Shown one piece after another: positions 15,704-21,619 of a stretch of DNA of 46,485 bases. Origin of the DNA: an uncultured Eubacteriales bacterium (GTDB lineage: Bacteria; Bacillota; Clostridia; Oscillospirales; Oscillospiraceae); NCBI GenBank assembly GCA_949296115.1, contig CASFNR010000010.1, positions 1 to 46,485 of the forward strand, read 5' to 3'. Below the pieces are notes generated by a model. The model searched no databases. It worked only from the letters and a program-made list of their open reading frames with translations, and was not told the DNA's origin. The position numbers and the translations under genes are program-made. How positions within the stretch are numbered: the stretch's first letter is position 1; every line of letters starts with the position of its first letter.

Positions 15704-17523
15704 TACGCCGTCACCTCCTGACAGCCGCTTTGGGCCTCGTAAATTTTCTGGTAAATGCCCCCCGCCTGCTTCAGCTGATCGTGGGTGCCTTCCTCCACAA
15801 TTCTGCCCCGATCCAGAACCAGGATTTTGTCGGCGGCGGAGAGAGTGGTGATCCGGTGAGAGATGAGAATGACGCTGGCTTTGCCGAATTTCTGGGAGAT
15901 GGCCTTCCGGATTTTTGCGTCGGTCTCGGTGTCCACCGCAGACAGGGAGTCGTCGAAGATCAGAATGGGGGTATTCTGGGTCAGGGTCCGGGCGATGGCG
16001 GCCCGCTGTTTCTGACCGCCGGAGAGGGTGACGCCCCGCTCGCCTACCATGGTCTCGTAGCCGGCGGCAAAGGATGTGATGGATTCATCCAGGGCAGCGG
16101 CGGAGGCGGCGGAACGGACGGCCTCCATATCCAGCCGGGGGGAGACGATGCCGATGTTTTCAGCGATGGTCCGGGAGAACAGGAAGGGCTCCTGGAGCAC
16201 CATGCCGATGTTCCGGCGCAGGTGCTCCGTCCGGATTTTCCGGATGTCGGTGCCGCCGATGGTGATGCGGCCGCCGCCTTCCTCCAGCAGATACAGCTTG
16301 TCCAGCAGGAGCATCATGGTGGACTTGCCGCTGCCGGTTCCGCCCAGAATGCCCAGGGTGGTGCCGGCTTTCATGGTGAAGGTGATGTCGTGGAGCATCT
16401 GGGGGGCGTTTTCGTAGCCGAAGTTCACATGCTCAAAGCGGATGTCCCCGTCCATGGGAGCGTCAAAAGCGTCGGGGTCATCCTGCTCCGCCTGGGAGTT
16501 CATGATGTAGGCCACCCGTTCAATGGAGACGCCGGCCTTGCTCATTTCAGAAATCATCCGGCCCAGCTGACGGATGGGCCAGATCAGCATGGAATTGTAG
16601 GAGATGAAGGCGATGTATTCGCCCTCGGATAGGCTGCCACGGACGCAGAACCAGGCGCCGAAGATGACGACCAGCATCACCTGGGCGCCAGAGAGCATGT
16701 CGGATGTGCTCCAGAACTGGGACAGAACCTTGCCCATGCGAACCCACAAAGAGGTATAGTAGTCGTTCTGCTTCTGGAATTTATCGATTTCCGCCCGCTC
16801 CTGACCGAAGGCCCGGACCACCCGGACACCGGTGAGGTTTTCCTGGGCCATGGCGGAGAGCTTGCCCTCATTCTCGTCGCAGTCCAGGAAACCGTCATAG
16901 ACCCGTTTGTGAAAGTAAAACGAGTAGACGATGATTGCCGGCATGGGAATCAGGGCGATTCCTGCCAGCAGGGGATGCATGGACAGCATGAAGCTGATGG
17001 AGAGAATCAGCAAAATAATAATCCGGAAGATGGATGTCAGCTGCTCCGACAGGAACCGCTTGGTGGTTTCAATGTCGGAGGTACACCGCTGGATAATGTC
17101 GCCGGTGCGGTTCTGCATATGCCAGGAAAAGGGGAGCCGTTCAATGTGGGAGAACAGCCCGTCCCGCATGGACTTGACCAAGGTTTCCGCTGCCTTGGTG
17201 TTATTGACTCGGAAGGTGTATTGACTTACCACCTGGAACAGGGCAACCACAACCACAGCCAGCGCCATAATCCACAGATGCTGACCCAGGTAGGGAAAGC
17301 CGCCCACCCGGTTCACCAGGTCCATGACGAAATCCGGGAAATTCCCTTCTTTTCCGCCGATGGCGCAGTCCACCGCAGCCCGGATGATCTGGGGCTGAAT
17401 CATGTCTGCCAGGGCGGTCACTGCCGCTGCCAGAATGCTGATAAGGAAGTAGCGCTTCGCTCCCCGCATAAATGCCCACAGAAGTGCAGCGGACGAGCGG
17501 CCTGAGGGATTCTCTTGTTTCAT
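15703..17523 (-). CDS. ABC exporter half-transporter, degenerate-site subunit (left pair)
   Basis: A 606-residue ABC exporter subunit with an N-terminal membrane domain (about 25-325) and a nucleotide-binding domain. Walker A is GGTGSGKST, the signature is LSGGQKQR and the switch is ISHRIT. Walker B reads LIFDDSLSAVD, with Asp in place of the catalytic Glu, as in the degenerate-site partner of heterodimeric exporters. GGAGG 6 bases before ATG 17523 sets the start; the frame runs further upstream by chance through the leader. Expression appears to be controlled by the leader peptide and terminator at 17606-17723. Confidence 0.92.
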   Translation of the reverse strand: MKQENPSGRSSAALLWAFMRGAKRYFLISILAAAVTALADMIQPQIIRAAVDCAIGGKEGNFPDFVMDLVNRVGGFPYLGQHLWIMALAVVVVALFQVVSQYTFRVNNTKAAETLVKSMRDGLFSHIERLPFSWHMQNRTGDIIQRCTSDIETTKRFLSEQLTSIFRIIILLILSISFMLSMHPLLAGIALIPMPAIIVYSFYFHKRVYDGFLDCDENEGKLSAMAQENLTGVRVVRAFGQERAEIDKFQKQNDYYTSLWVRMGKVLSQFWSTSDMLSGAQVMLVVIFGAWFCVRGSLSEGEYIAFISYNSMLIWPIRQLGRMISEMSKAGVSIERVAYIMNSQAEQDDPDAFDAPMDGDIRFEHVNFGYENAPQMLHDITFTMKAGTTLGILGGTGSGKSTMMLLLDKLYLLEEGGGRITIGGTDIRKIRTEHLRRNIGMVLQEPFLFSRTIAENIGIVSPRLDMEAVRSAASAAALDESITSFAAGYETMVGERGVTLSGGQKQRAAIARTLTQNTPILIFDDSLSAVDTETDAKIRKAISQKFGKASVILISHRITTLSAADKILVLDRGRIVEEGTHDQLKQAGGIYQKIYEAQSGCQEVTA

Positions 17524-17605
17524 TTCTTTCCTCCAATCTCTTTCAACTGTCTGCGGAAGCCGTGAGAAATCCTCAGCAGGCAGGGAATTTTGCTCCAATT
17601 GACGC

Positions 17606-17632
17606 AAAAAGGCGCAGGCCGAAGCCTGCGCC
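17606..17632 (-). terminator. Intrinsic terminator inside the leader of the ABC exporter (attenuator)
   Basis: On the minus strand, GGCGCAGGC-TTCG-GCCTGCGCC (17632-17611), a perfect 9-bp stem with a stable tetraloop, is followed by TTTTT (17610-17606). It lies between the only visible minus-strand promoter (17793-17765) and the ABC start at 17523. There is no upstream gene for it to terminate, so it most likely works as an attenuator. Confidence 0.85.
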
Positions 17633-17660
17633 CGATAGAAAGCCGCATTGCACAATGCCG

Positions 17661-17723
17661 CTATGCGTCTGCCGGAGCCAAGCTTCTGATTGCACAAGTG
17701 ATAACAAACCGGTTAAACAACAT
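17661..17723 (-). CDS. Leader peptide of the ABC exporter operon (20 residues)
   Basis: A 20-codon ORF, MLFNRFVITCAIRSLAPADA, with AAAGGAG (17739-17733) 9 bases before its ATG. It starts about 35 bases after the predicted transcription start and ends 28 bases before the terminator hairpin. The segment covering codons 13-15 (17686-17679, GAAGCTTG) can pair with CAGGCTTC (17628-17621), the inner 5' arm and loop of the terminator, with one G-U pair. This could be an antiterminator that forms when a ribosome stalls early in the peptide. The layout resembles bmrB-bmrCD of Bacillus subtilis; the peptide itself is not one I recognise. Confidence 0.65.
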   Translation of the reverse strand: MLFNRFVITCAIRSLAPADA

Positions 17724-17764
17724 GAAACTCAACTCCTTTCTTCCTTAATTTTGATGACAGCAGT

Positions 17765-17793
17765 ATCATAGCATCATTGGGCATTACTGTCAA
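17765..17793 (-). promoter_or_regulatory. Promoter of the attenuated ABC exporter operon
   Basis: Minus strand: TTGACA (17793-17788), 17-base spacer, TATGAT (17770-17765). The predicted start is near 17758, giving a leader of about 235 bases. Confidence 0.85.
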
Positions 17794-17869
17794 TAGACTT
17801 AGATAAAATACCGCCTTTTTTTCACGGAGAGGATACAGAAGTGAAAATGCGGGGAAAAGAATTCAAAAA

Positions 17870-17943: not shown

Positions 17944-19671
17944 TTGAAACGATTGCTTCGCTATATGAAAGGATATGAAAAACAGTGTGTTCTCGGGCCG
18001 CTGTTCAAGTTGCTGGAGGCGCTGTTTGAATTGCTTGTTCCCCTGGTTGTTGCCCGGATTGTGGATCAGGGCATTGCCAACGGTGACCGGGGCTATGTGG
18101 TTCAGATGTGCCTGGTGATGGTTGCGCTGGGCGTGGTGGGTCTGGTGATGTCCGTGTCGGCCCAGTATTTTTCTGCGGTGGCGGCAGTGGGCTTTTCCAC
18201 CCGGCTGCGTCATGCTCTGATGGAGAACATTCTGGGCCTGAGCTACAGCCAGGTGGATCAGCTGGGCAGCTCTACCATGATTACCCGGATGACCTCGGAT
18301 GTCAATCAGGTGCAGAACGGCGTCAACCTGACCCTGCGGCTGCTGCTTCGCTCTCCCTTTGTGGTGTTTGGCGCCATGGTGATGGCGTTCACCATTGACT
18401 TCTCTGCGGCGCTGGTGTTTGTTGGGGTGATCCCGGTGCTGTGCGTCATTGTTTTCGGCCTGATGATCATCACCATACCCATGTACCGCCGGGTACAGGT
18501 ATCTCTGGACGGCGTGACGTCCGCCACCCGGCAGAATCTGTCCGGTGTCCGGGTGCTCCGGGCCTTCTGCAAGGAGGATACAGAGGTAGAGTCCTTCTGC
18601 GGCAGCACTGCCAAGCTGACCCAGGCCCAATTGATTGCGGGCCGGGTTTCTGCCCTGATGAATCCCCTGACCTATGTGGTCATCAATTTGGCGGTGGTTC
18701 TGCTGGTGCGGGTGGGCGCCATCCAGGTGGAAAACGGCATTCTGACCCAGGGCCTGGTCATTGCCCTGTACAACTACATGTCTCAGATCCTGGTGGAACT
18801 GATTAAGATGGCCAATCTGATTATCACCATCTCCAAATCCCTGGCCTGCGCGAACCGGGTGGCCAAGGTGTTGGAACTCAAGAGCAGCCAGGAAAACGGC
18901 ACATTGGATGCGGGGAGCCTGCGGGGCGAAGTGGAGTTCCGGGATGTGTCCGCCCAGTATGCCGGAGCGGCGAACCCCTCTCTGGAGCACATCAGCTTCC
19001 ATGCCCATCCCGGTCAGACCATCGGCATCATTGGCGGCACCGGCTCCGGCAAGACCACCCTGGTCAACCTGATTCCCCGGCTGTATGATGCGTTGTCCGG
19101 ACAGGTTCTGCTGGATGGGGCGGAAGCGGCTCAATATGACCAGAATTCCCTGCGTCAGGTGATTGGACTGGTGCCCCAGAAGGCGGTGATCTTCAAGGGA
19201 ACCATCCGGGAAAACCTCCGCTGGGGCAATCCGGACGCCACCGACGATGAGCTGTGGGCGGCGCTGGAGACGGCCCAGGCCCGGGAAGTGGTGAAGGATA
19301 AGGAAGGCGAACTGAACGCACCGGTGGAACAGGGGGGCGTGAACTTCTCCGGTGGTCAGCGTCAGCGGCTGACCATCGCCCGTGCACTGGTGCGCAAACC
19401 CAAAATTCTGATTCTGGATGACAGCGCCTCCGCCCTGGACTACGCCACGGATGCCAATCTGCGGATGGCCATCCGGAAGATGGAAAATCCACCCACTACC
19501 TTCCTGGTGTCCCAGCGGGCGGCTTCTGTTCGCTACGCCGATGAAATTCTGGTGCTGGACGACGGTATCCTGGTGGGACAGGGCACCCATGACCAGCTGC
19601 TGGAAAGCTGCTCCGTCTACCAGGAAATTTATTACTCCCAGTTCCCGAAGGAGGTGCGGCATCATGCTTAG
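17944..19671 (+). CDS. ABC exporter half-transporter, degenerate-site subunit (right pair)
   Basis: A 575-residue exporter subunit with six helices (about 15-300) and a nucleotide-binding domain: Walker A GGTGSGKTT, signature FSGGQRQR, Walker B LILDDSASALD. Two catalytic positions are altered: Asp replaces the Walker B Glu, and the switch histidine is Gln in LVSQRAAS. It is therefore the non-hydrolysing half of a heterodimer. AGGAGG (17931-17936) lies 7 bases before a TTG start at 17944; the next in-frame ATG (17968) would lose the ribosome site. It overlaps its partner gene by 8 bases. Confidence 0.92.
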   Translation: MKRLLRYMKGYEKQCVLGPLFKLLEALFELLVPLVVARIVDQGIANGDRGYVVQMCLVMVALGVVGLVMSVSAQYFSAVAAVGFSTRLRHALMENILGLSYSQVDQLGSSTMITRMTSDVNQVQNGVNLTLRLLLRSPFVVFGAMVMAFTIDFSAALVFVGVIPVLCVIVFGLMIITIPMYRRVQVSLDGVTSATRQNLSGVRVLRAFCKEDTEVESFCGSTAKLTQAQLIAGRVSALMNPLTYVVINLAVVLLVRVGAIQVENGILTQGLVIALYNYMSQILVELIKMANLIITISKSLACANRVAKVLELKSSQENGTLDAGSLRGEVEFRDVSAQYAGAANPSLEHISFHAHPGQTIGIIGGTGSGKTTLVNLIPRLYDALSGQVLLDGAEAAQYDQNSLRQVIGLVPQKAVIFKGTIRENLRWGNPDATDDELWAALETAQAREVVKDKEGELNAPVEQGGVNFSGGQRQRLTIARALVRKPKILILDDSASALDYATDANLRMAIRKMENPPTTFLVSQRAASVRYADEILVLDDGILVGQGTHDQLLESCSVYQEIYYSQFPKEVRHHA

Positions 19672-21403
19672 TCAATGGCAAACCATGAAGAAGGTTCTGC
19701 TGCGGATTCGCCGGTACTGGCCCACCCTGATTGCCGCCATTATTCTGGCCACGGTGAATGTGGGGATGACCCTGTACATGCCCATTCTGGTGGGCAACGC
19801 CATCGACTGCATTGTGGACGCAGGACAGGTGGATTTCGACCAAATGTGGGTGTTCCTCCGGGGCGTGATTCTCTGCGCCGCCATTGGGGGACTGGCCCAG
19901 TGGGTGATGAGTGAACTGTGCAACCGGATGACCTATCAGGTCACCCGGGACATCCGGAATGAAGCCTTCCGGCACATCCAGGTGCTGCCCATTTCCTACA
20001 TAGATCAGCACGCCCAGGGTGATCTGGTCAGCCGGGTGATTGCGGATGTGGATACCTTTGCCGACGGCCTGCTCATGGGCTTTACCCAGCTGTTCACCGG
20101 CGTGATGACCATTCTGGGTACCCTGGTATTTATGATGCGGATTCATTGGGGTACTGCGCTGGTGGTGGTGTGCATCACCCCGCTGTCACTGGTGGTTGCC
20201 AACTTCATCGCAACCCGGACCTACTCCATGTTCCGGGTTCAGACCGTGACCCGTGGGGAGCAGACATCCCTGATTGACGAGACCATCGGCAATGTGAAGG
20301 TGGTGCAGGCCTTCGGACATGAGCGGGCCTCCATGGAGCAGTTCGACGAGATCAACGGAAGGCTGCAAAAGGCATCCTTGCGGGCGATTTTCTTCTCCTC
20401 TCTGGTCAATCCCTGCACCCGGTTCGTCAACTCCATGGCCTATGCGGGGGTGGGACTCACCGGCGCCCTGATGGCAATCAGCGGCGGCATTACCGTGGGC
20501 AACCTGACCAGCTTCCTGAACTACGCCAACCAGTATACCAAACCCTTCAACGAGATTTCCGGTGTCATCACCGAGCTGCAGAATGCGCTGGCCTGCTCTG
20601 CCCGGGTCTTTGAACTGATCGAAGCCCCCGCCCGGACACCGGAGCCGGAGCATCCCCAGCGCCCGGAGAAGGTGGAAGGAGCCGTGGAAATCCGGGATCT
20701 GAAATTCTCCTATGTACCGGAGAAACCTCTGATTGACAGCTTCAATCTCTCTGTAAAGCCGGGCCAGCGGATTGCCATTGTGGGGCCCACCGGCTGCGGC
20801 AAGACCACCTTCATCAACCTGCTGATGCGCTTCTACGACCCCCAGGGCGGTGAGATTCGTCTGGATGGGGTGGACACCATGCAGATGCGCCGGGACGATC
20901 TGCGCCGGAGTGTGGGTATGGTGCTCCAGGACACCTGGCTCCGGGCCGGTACCATCCGGGAGAACATTGCCATGGGCAAGCCCGACGCCACCCAGGAGGA
21001 GATTGAGGCTGCGGCCAGGCAGGCCCATGCCCACAGCTTTATCCGCCGCCTGCCGGATGGGTACGACACGGTGATCTCCGAGGCCGGAGGAAACCTGTCC
21101 CAGGGCCAGAAGCAGCTGCTGTGCATCGCCCGGGTGATGCTTTGCCTGCCGCCCATGCTGTTCCTGGACGAGGCTACCTCGTCCATTGATACCCGGACGG
21201 AGATTCGGATTCAGAAGGCCTTCGACACCATGATGCAGGGCCGGACCTCCTTCATTGTGGCCCACCGCCTGTCCACCATCCAGGAGGCGGACCTGATTCT
21301 GGTAATGCGGGACGGCCATATTGTGGAGCAGGGCAAACACGAGGAGCTGCTGAAAAAGCGGGGCTGCTACTCTCAGCTGTATATGAGCCAGTTCGCCCAT
21401 TGA
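19664..21403 (+). CDS. ABC exporter half-transporter, catalytic subunit (right pair)
   Basis: A 579-residue partner of the preceding gene, with a membrane domain (about 15-310) then a nucleotide-binding domain with Walker A GPTGCGKTT, signature NLSQGQKQL, Walker B LFLDEATSSID and switch VAHRLST. The catalytic Glu and His are present, so this half carries the hydrolytic site. GGAGG (19650-19654) lies 9 bases before ATG 19664, inside the end of the upstream gene. A strong terminator follows. Substrate unknown; the family exports drugs, lipids or peptides. Confidence 0.92.
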   Translation: MLSQWQTMKKVLLRIRRYWPTLIAAIILATVNVGMTLYMPILVGNAIDCIVDAGQVDFDQMWVFLRGVILCAAIGGLAQWVMSELCNRMTYQVTRDIRNEAFRHIQVLPISYIDQHAQGDLVSRVIADVDTFADGLLMGFTQLFTGVMTILGTLVFMMRIHWGTALVVVCITPLSLVVANFIATRTYSMFRVQTVTRGEQTSLIDETIGNVKVVQAFGHERASMEQFDEINGRLQKASLRAIFFSSLVNPCTRFVNSMAYAGVGLTGALMAISGGITVGNLTSFLNYANQYTKPFNEISGVITELQNALACSARVFELIEAPARTPEPEHPQRPEKVEGAVEIRDLKFSYVPEKPLIDSFNLSVKPGQRIAIVGPTGCGKTTFINLLMRFYDPQGGEIRLDGVDTMQMRRDDLRRSVGMVLQDTWLRAGTIRENIAMGKPDATQEEIEAAARQAHAHSFIRRLPDGYDTVISEAGGNLSQGQKQLLCIARVMLCLPPMLFLDEATSSIDTRTEIRIQKAFDTMMQGRTSFIVAHRLSTIQEADLILVMRDGHIVEQGKHEELLKKRGCYSQLYMSQFAH

Positions 21404-21527: not shown

Positions 21528-21619
21528 GGAGAAGTCGCGTAGCTGGCCGAGCGCGCACGATTGGAAATCGTGTATACCCCAAAAGGGTATCGAGGGTTCA
21601 AATCCCTCCTTCTCCGCCA
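21528..21619 (+). tRNA. tRNA-Ser(GGA)
   Basis: A class II tRNA. The acceptor stem is GGAGAAG (21528-21534) with CTTCTCC (21609-21615), then G and an encoded CCA (21617-21619). The anticodon loop TTGGAAA places GGA at 21563-21565, reading UCC/UCU. A long variable arm (TACCCC/GGGTA around 21575-21590) and a T-arm GAGGGTTCAAATCCCTC follow. It has its own promoter and terminator. Confidence 0.97.

Follow-up and report, generated by a model that had tools for sequence, protein, structure and literature searches.

What governs the ABC exporter operon on the minus strand of this DNA from an uncultured Eubacteriales bacterium (contig CASFNR010000010.1, positions 1 to 46,485, the whole of which we call the window), and what is an intrinsic terminator doing directly ahead of it? 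Read 5′ to 3′ on the minus strand, the sequence presents a promoter, a 20-codon open reading frame (ORF), the terminator and then the operon. It is very likely, judging from the sequence and from modelling, that this leader is a ribosome-mediated transcription attenuator with four pairing segments, the inducer of which would probably be an antibiotic; as a reading of the sequence, attenuation is strongly supported by comparison with relatives. The nearest gene upstream of the operon (17944–19671) is on the plus strand, and the terminator therefore serves only the exporter operon, as the initial annotation of this locus had argued in noting that nothing else upstream needs it.

The promoter (17765–17793, minus strand) consists of TTGACA (17793–17788) and TATGAT (17770–17765) with a 17-nucleotide spacer and a TG before the -10 hexamer, a consensus match of 11 out of 12. 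The leader ORF (17661–17723, minus strand; 20 codons and a stop, peptide MLFNRFVITCAIRSLAPADA) has an AAAGGAG ribosome site ending 9 nucleotides ahead of its ATG, and the intrinsic terminator (17606–17632, minus strand) begins 28 nucleotides past the leader stop; its 9-bp stem, GGCGCAGGC/GCCTGCGCC with a TTCG loop, lies at 17632–17611, five T residues continue down to 17606, and the exporter ATG (17523) is 82 nucleotides past the T run. The initial annotation had placed promoter, leader with its ribosome site, and terminator correctly to the base. It had also proposed that GAAGCTTG (17686–17679, leader codons 13–15) pairs with the 5′ arm and loop of the terminator, and both the position and, as described below, the pairing hold. 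What it did not include is a 13-bp helix (17736–17724 with 17686–17674) that contains the Shine-Dalgarno (SD) sequence of the leader itself and would supply the OFF state, and a family of similar elements ahead of many genes.

The four segments are thus defined as follows. Segment 1 (17724–17736, minus strand; GGAGTTGAGTTTC) runs from the leader SD to the start codon and forms the 5′ strand of the putative anti-antiterminator, as judged from the minimum free energy (MFE) fold, duplex calculations and covariation. Segment 2 (17674–17686, minus strand; GAAGCTTGGCTCC) lies within codons 13–17, encodes R-S-L-A-P, and is common to helix 1:2 and the predicted antiterminator 2:3, in which its partner is segment 3 (17620–17633, minus strand; GGGCGCAGGCTTCG), the terminator 5′ arm and loop; the terminator is helix 3:4. 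The MFE fold predicted for the leader contains helix 1:2 (z -2.03; an equally good fold is reached by 9 of 200 shuffles), and the best 1:2 and 2:3 duplexes of the window have energies of -19.1 kcal/mol (13 bp) and -18.3 kcal/mol respectively. Single signals of this kind are weak proof on their own, because similar sites are partly expected by chance: the 1.5-kb stretch that we scanned contains three promoter-like sites with 1.2 expected, and three terminator-like sites with 1.7 expected. That such hairpins are common is what would favor an ordinary terminator next to a chance ORF, with no regulation at all, an explanation to which we give almost no probability given the conservation of the element and of its promoter, the covariation and the swap tests described below; it is conservation that excludes chance.

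A nucleotide BLAST comparison of the 351-bp region with 40 relatives returned the window itself and two short matches (38 and 45 bases) that are parts of family members in genomes G018 and G010, and because this search was nearly empty it was moved to protein orthologs of the first exporter gene, P0001, and then to covariance models. Among 101 genomes of the genus there are 18 matches to P0001 at E≤1e-100. On reading the upstream regions, 15 leaders share the layout of the window, 14 from these 18 orthologs together with L029, which is one of the ten nearest named records (L022–L030, L040); these are titled as Oscillospiraceae metagenome-assembled genomes, and five come from the gut of goats or water deer. 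Both the ORF and the hairpin are therefore kept in relatives, one of the points on which the initial annotation had staked its proposal. Searching 136 genomes of the genus with a covariance model (R1) built from the 15 leaders, all of them upstream of P0001 orthologs, led to 26 places outside the training set that we read as real, 25 of which precede other genes and one of which is a relic. At the low end of the R1 matches the rejected places in G012 (6.0e-5) and G132 (7.8e-5) interleave in E-value with the accepted L134 (1.0e-4) and L137 (2.1e-4), and acceptance there consequently rested on reading the promoter, leader and terminator.

A second model (R2), built from 40 members (alignment A4) without the relic L089, identifies 47 places in 42 of the 136 genomes at E≤2.3e-9, of which 40 are training sequences that match by construction and seven are not; the accepted places are separated from the rest by a gap extending to 4.8e-7, the value of L176, which belongs to another kind of sequence. 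The whole element of the window (17606–17745, minus strand) scores 93.4 bits (E 2.6e-24), its place being an R2 training sequence. We note that model E-values are rough, and that kinship among the genomes inflates the counts, an effect that representatives and within-group tests reduce without removing. Conservation extends to the promoter, since a promoter pair matching at least 9 of 12 positions is found in 49 of 50 elements versus 64 of 1000 stretches drawn at random from these loci, and the spacer is 17 nucleotides in 48 of the 50. The relic (L089/L188, at G057:C2) keeps segment 2 and the terminator and has neither a promoter, nor the expected start codon, nor a convincing gene nearby; it is apparently a degenerate copy, usable as a natural negative control.

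R2 identified only three places outside the genus at E<1e-9 in 400 genomes across the family (G547, G480, G445); 391 genomes of the class gave none below 1e-9 besides that of the window (best 7.6e-7; three of eight places were read and none is the element); and R1 in 295 genomes of the order gave, besides G000 and G021, a best value of 4.4e-5, with neither of the two places read being the element. Searches of more than 40 genomes used stricter filters, under which weak matches are lost. The leader was unmatched in plasmid and phage collections, and we found no description of the element in the open-access literature searched. Three R2 copies are present in G022 and two each in G018, G047 and G071, and the window's own genome has one copy above noise (next match E 0.58); these copy numbers are lower bounds because the genomes are incomplete assemblies. 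The weak matches that were fetched were judged one by one, and L132, L133, L135, L136, L138, L139, L141 and L142, as well as the weak model matches L179, L180, L095 and L096, proved on reading to be bare terminators or other sequence. The sequences around four weak R2 matches (L176, L181, L191, L192) display a different repeated arrangement, apparently upstream of genes in four genomes, in which a long inverted repeat (GCGACACAATT...AATTGTGTCGC in L176 and L191) is followed by a GGAG-containing stretch and then a terminator; it has no Rfam match at the gathering level.

The pairings themselves are maintained by covariation. Run without guidance on the 15 leaders as aligned by plain MAFFT, RNAalifold returns helix 1:2, between the SD region and leader codons, and helix 3:4. 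In the 40-member alignment, which was fitted to the model (the earlier MAFFT alignment gives the same helices), 95.1% of cells pair, versus 39.5–49.9% in slid versions, and 13 of 18 pairs have changed on both sides, in 85 cells versus a shuffled mean of 23.2. Helix 2:3 is in neither model's structure, and exchanging partners among leaders is therefore an independent check of it. Among 29 representatives below 75% identity (11 of the 40 members being dropped, with L089 and nine later-fetched elements outside the test), own partners average -16.20 versus -13.11 kcal/mol for swapped partners in 1:2, and -16.26 versus -14.60 kcal/mol in 2:3; none of 20000 permutations equals the own partners for either helix. 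When swaps are confined within groups, 163 of 20000 are as good for 1:2 in the 10 exporter orthologs, a weaker result, and none in the 19 others, with corresponding numbers for 2:3 of 26 and 12 of 20000. Individual leaders illustrate the correspondence: the terminator loop region is GCATAG and segment 2 is CTATGC in L124, these are CTTCCG and CGGAAG in L066 and L067, and GCTTT stands opposite AAAGC in L077.

Alternative helices could by themselves serve a ligand, and the leader might then be riboswitch-like, binding a small molecule or protein, with the ORF incidental. We regard this as highly improbable. One helix strand is the SD itself, and the reading frame and stop position are kept; moreover Rfam reports only tRNA in the whole window at the gathering level, nothing at E≤1 in 17500–17850, and nothing but 5S rRNA and tRNA when 16 related loci are searched. 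The frame is well maintained, with segment 2 in the leader frame in 47 of 49 members (L089 being left out), and its alanine codon followed by 4–7 codons in 46 of the 47 (5 or 6 in 39), although the position of segment 2 ranges from codon 13 to codon 23. The other leaders are 19–29 codons long, one ORF having no stop, and that of the window is 20. A sequence pattern together with inspection by eye served to anchor segment 2, and the residue tallies given below use the first pattern anchoring, which places a wrong 'AR' in some leaders. Two further features of the leader ends were seen: 21 of the 32 in-frame leaders outside the P0001 group end in arginine, and in L123, L140, L087 and L125 the stop codon lies between CCCG and CGGG or GCGGG, which could form a small hairpin and perhaps pause RNA polymerase.

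These features suggest how such an attenuator would operate. On a leader free of ribosomes, segment 1 would pair with segment 2, leaving segment 3 to segment 4, and transcription would end before the exporter. During normal translation ribosomes would run onto segment 2, which lies just ahead of the stop codon, so that translating ribosomes should prevent 2:3 and transcription would end as well. A ribosome held with its P site at about the first five codons would cover segment 1 and leave segment 2 free, allowing 2:3 to form ahead of 3:4 and the exporter to be transcribed. The natural signal is most likely an inhibitor whose effect is to halt ribosomes at initiation or immediately after it, to judge from this geometry and from the neighboring genes; that the leader is translated in vivo, that the hairpin ends transcription or lets it through, what the inducer is, and that the exporter removes it are all matters that we infer.

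The transcript was folded as far as the terminator loop with the nucleotides under a ribosome masked (the footprint being assumed to extend from 15 nucleotides upstream to 17 nucleotides downstream of the first base of the P-site codon), and the outcome agrees with the proposal in the initial annotation that an early stall frees the antiterminator segment. The computed numbers of expected pairs in 1:2 and 2:3 for the window are 14.0 and 0.2 with no ribosome, 0.0 and 11.9 when a ribosome occupies the start codon, and 6.1 and 0.1 when it is at the stop. Across the 49 leaders 2:3 reaches six pairs in 12 with no ribosome, in 43 when the ribosome is on the start codon, in 28 when it is at codon 5 and in 5 when it is at the stop. 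Stepping the ribosome along 48 leaders (L175, which has no stop, being left out), 2:3 forms in 42, 43, 40, 39 and 27 for P-site codons 1–5 and in no more than 14 from codon 6 on; in the window it forms over codons 1–8. A stricter switch criterion is satisfied by 31 of 49 real leaders, versus 34 of 490 with dinucleotide-shuffled leader codons.

A number of observations weigh against this interpretation. Eighteen of the 49 leaders fail the stricter criterion, 12 reach six antiterminator pairs without any ribosome, and six do not reach them with a ribosome on the start codon; because of these exceptions the OFF state in the absence of a ribosome is not uniform. It would also be expected that the terminator wins at equilibrium, so that the switch would have to rest on kinetics. 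Segment 2 is out of frame in L124 and L129, and the ORF of L175 passes the terminator without a stop. Four of the 18 exporter orthologs in the genus sample have no R2 match (L016, L018, L020, L021): a contig end truncates the upstream region of L016, the promoter-like TTGACA/TATGAT pair of L018 leads into different sequence, and the leader ORF and terminator present in L020 and L021 (50% identity) differ in sequence. None of ten more distant relatives is matched by R2 either (48–70% identity; L031–L039 and L041), the upstream sequence of L033 being only about 290 bases. Lastly, among the NCBIfam matches listed for ten proteins (eight downstream proteins, P0001 and P0002; the best 25 of 185 for P0001, of 187 for P0002 and of 49 for L185) none is at a curated cut-off; no named resistance gene therefore backs the antibiotic reading, and 'resistance-like' as used here describes families only. 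As a separate observation, the ribosome-site stretch of L020, GGCGCACAA, has an exact complement, TTGTGCGCC, towards the end of the leader ORF, although R2 does not match this locus.

Two alternatives accept the attenuator and place the sensor in the peptide or in the charging of tRNA. The first is an arrest peptide, in which a conserved [LF]AP motif is the site where a drug halts the ribosome; AP is present at the anchor in 33 of 47 leaders and a leucine or phenylalanine precedes it in 36 of 47, although the anchor is a GC dinucleotide, so that alanine arises by construction when it is in frame. Complementarity to the SD at the RNA level accounts for the motif, the other forms (AS in 7, AL in 4, AH in 2 and AR in 1) mostly still pairing with the purine-rich SD, and with the P site at any position from six codons before to two after the anchor alanine none of 48 leaders reaches six antiterminator pairs. 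An arrest peptide thus seems very unlikely to us. The second is a trp-type attenuator, in which shortage of an amino acid makes ribosomes pause at its codons early in the leader. Four segments arranged in this way would suit that mechanism as well, leucine (11.5%) and asparagine (11.1%) occur most often in the N-terminal part, and leucine occupies position 2 in 24 of 47; yet the window leader has no run of a single codon, residues 3–7 show by eye no dominant residue over the 47 leaders, and the downstream genes with Pfam assignments are exporters and modifying or hydrolytic enzymes rather than genes of amino-acid biosynthesis. We consider this very unlikely.

The best reading, from sequence and modelling, is accordingly a sensor that would be independent of the peptide and read ribosomes arrested just after initiation. 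The initial annotation had suggested a new ribosome-mediated sensor, with a conserved peptide and compensatory changes to be sought in relatives. Both helices do covary and the frame is kept, but the N-terminal peptide varies; because it looks unconstrained in its N-terminal half, the 'new sensor' should be understood as a geometry of RNA and ribosome and not as a new arrest peptide.

The genes that follow the element are of several kinds. Fifteen of the 50 elements are ahead of P0001 orthologs and 14 are ahead of a second exporter subfamily, assigned by Pfam for L090, L128 and L134 and judged from the first 70 residues for the other 11; in L177, from another genus, the element precedes an ABC ATPase. 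The first gene encodes a GNAT protein in four (L183, L126, L140 and L129, in which it is 325 nucleotides away), an S66 peptidase in four (by Pfam for L178, L187 and L124, and by similarity for L127), and a PNP/UDP phosphorylase in three (L131, L137 and, as a 137-residue piece, L184). Other kinds occur once each: the first gene of L185 encodes a methyltransferase, that of L125 a NUDIX-HIT protein, that of L182 a metallophosphoesterase, that of L123 a histidine phosphatase, with an APH-family protein encoded next, and that of L186 GrpB, with a GNAT protein encoded next. The first genes of L174 and L175 have no Pfam family at E≤0.001, and the L145 element is at a contig edge. Within the genus the first genes fall into nine kinds, and because the family precedes at least nine kinds, the elements probably form a translation-stress regulon distributed in cis in one genus.

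The exporter that follows the window element is a heterodimer of two full ABC halves, as the initial annotation had described it. P0001 (15703–17523, minus strand) and P0002 (13898–15703, minus strand) each have Pfam ABC_membrane and ABC_tran domains, and the P0002 start overlaps the P0001 stop (TAATG). The Walker B motif is IFDD in P0001, with a non-consensus Asp, and ILDE in P0002, which has an altered signature, STGEKQ; a non-consensus Walker B Asp and an altered signature have the meaning familiar from heterodimeric exporters. Among the solved chains listed (the best 60 of 154 for P0001 and the best 60 of 151 for P0002) the highest-scoring are full-length ABCB-type transporters, and the half-transporters matched include 6raf_B, TM_0288, YheI for P0001 (4.5e-86) and YheH for P0002 (3.1e-89). 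YheI and YheH are also known as BmrC and BmrD, the two halves of BmrCD. A second ABC exporter-like gene pair (17944–21403, plus strand) is transcribed divergently out of the intergenic region that holds the leader; P0003, the first half of this pair, has a TTG start, Pfam ABC_membrane and ABC_tran domains and a non-consensus Walker B Asp. The R2 model matches no attenuator for this pair, and a tRNA-Ser (GGA) gene is located just downstream of it at 21528–21619 (plus strand).

The class of mechanism is known from vmlR, bmrB and hflXr, and it is the family and its use with many genes that appear to be new. In vmlR of Bacillus subtilis an upstream ORF (uORF) lies in an anti-antiterminator, and a ribosome stalled at initiation leads to the antiterminator, so that intrinsic termination is avoided, which is the same logic as that proposed here (PMC9226507). 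There the uORF has three codons (Met-Ile-Asn), a pause hairpin and an additional helix that covers the vmlR SD are present, and a single ABCF gene is controlled (PMC9226507), whereas the leaders described here have 19–29 codons, hold segment 2 within their own codons and precede many gene families. The bmrB-bmrCD system of the same species, to which the initial annotation had compared this locus, is alike in the logic of its leader, but its terminator lies within the coding region and it is described for one operon (PMC4191407); the layout here, with the terminator outside the ORF, is not of the bmrB type. P0001 and P0002 do match YheI and YheH, although these are not their best solved matches. 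The Listeria rli80-hflXr leader, in which mutation of the start codon prevents induction, also resembles the element, but has an RLR macrolide motif (PMC6310831) that we found by eye in none of the 49 family leaders; some of these, for example L130, have another R-x-R.

Two other uORF systems can be compared. The Escherichia coli toiL uORF answers several inhibitor classes through different stall positions, but acts on topAI translation and Rho-dependent termination and not through an intrinsic terminator (PMC12121999). Actinobacterial whiB7 has a uORF attenuator with terminator and anti-terminator forms that links translation stress to acetyltransferases, phosphotransferases and transporters, but does so with one attenuator and a transcription factor acting in trans, whereas copies of the present element stand before individual genes (PMC10727445). 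Attenuators common to different genes have been proposed earlier in general terms (PMC2965389), and a structured-RNA search has described a uORF motif that lies ahead of hflX and encodes an RLR peptide (PMC8632094). The resistance-gene uORF attenuators compared here are each described for one gene or operon, whereas this element recurs before many, including a case in which the second gene is of a phosphotransferase family.

On balance we favor, with some reservation, the interpretation that a portable, peptide-independent sensor has spread together with its promoter before at least nine unrelated kinds of resistance-like gene in a genus of gut Oscillospiraceae, and would constitute a translation-stress regulon needing no transcription factor, a cis-distributed counterpart of WhiB7. 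Its design predicts that the position of the stall, and not the peptide, sets specificity. A single element would then tie unannotated enzymes to one likely signal, and would offer a testable resistance repertoire for these little-studied gut bacteria.

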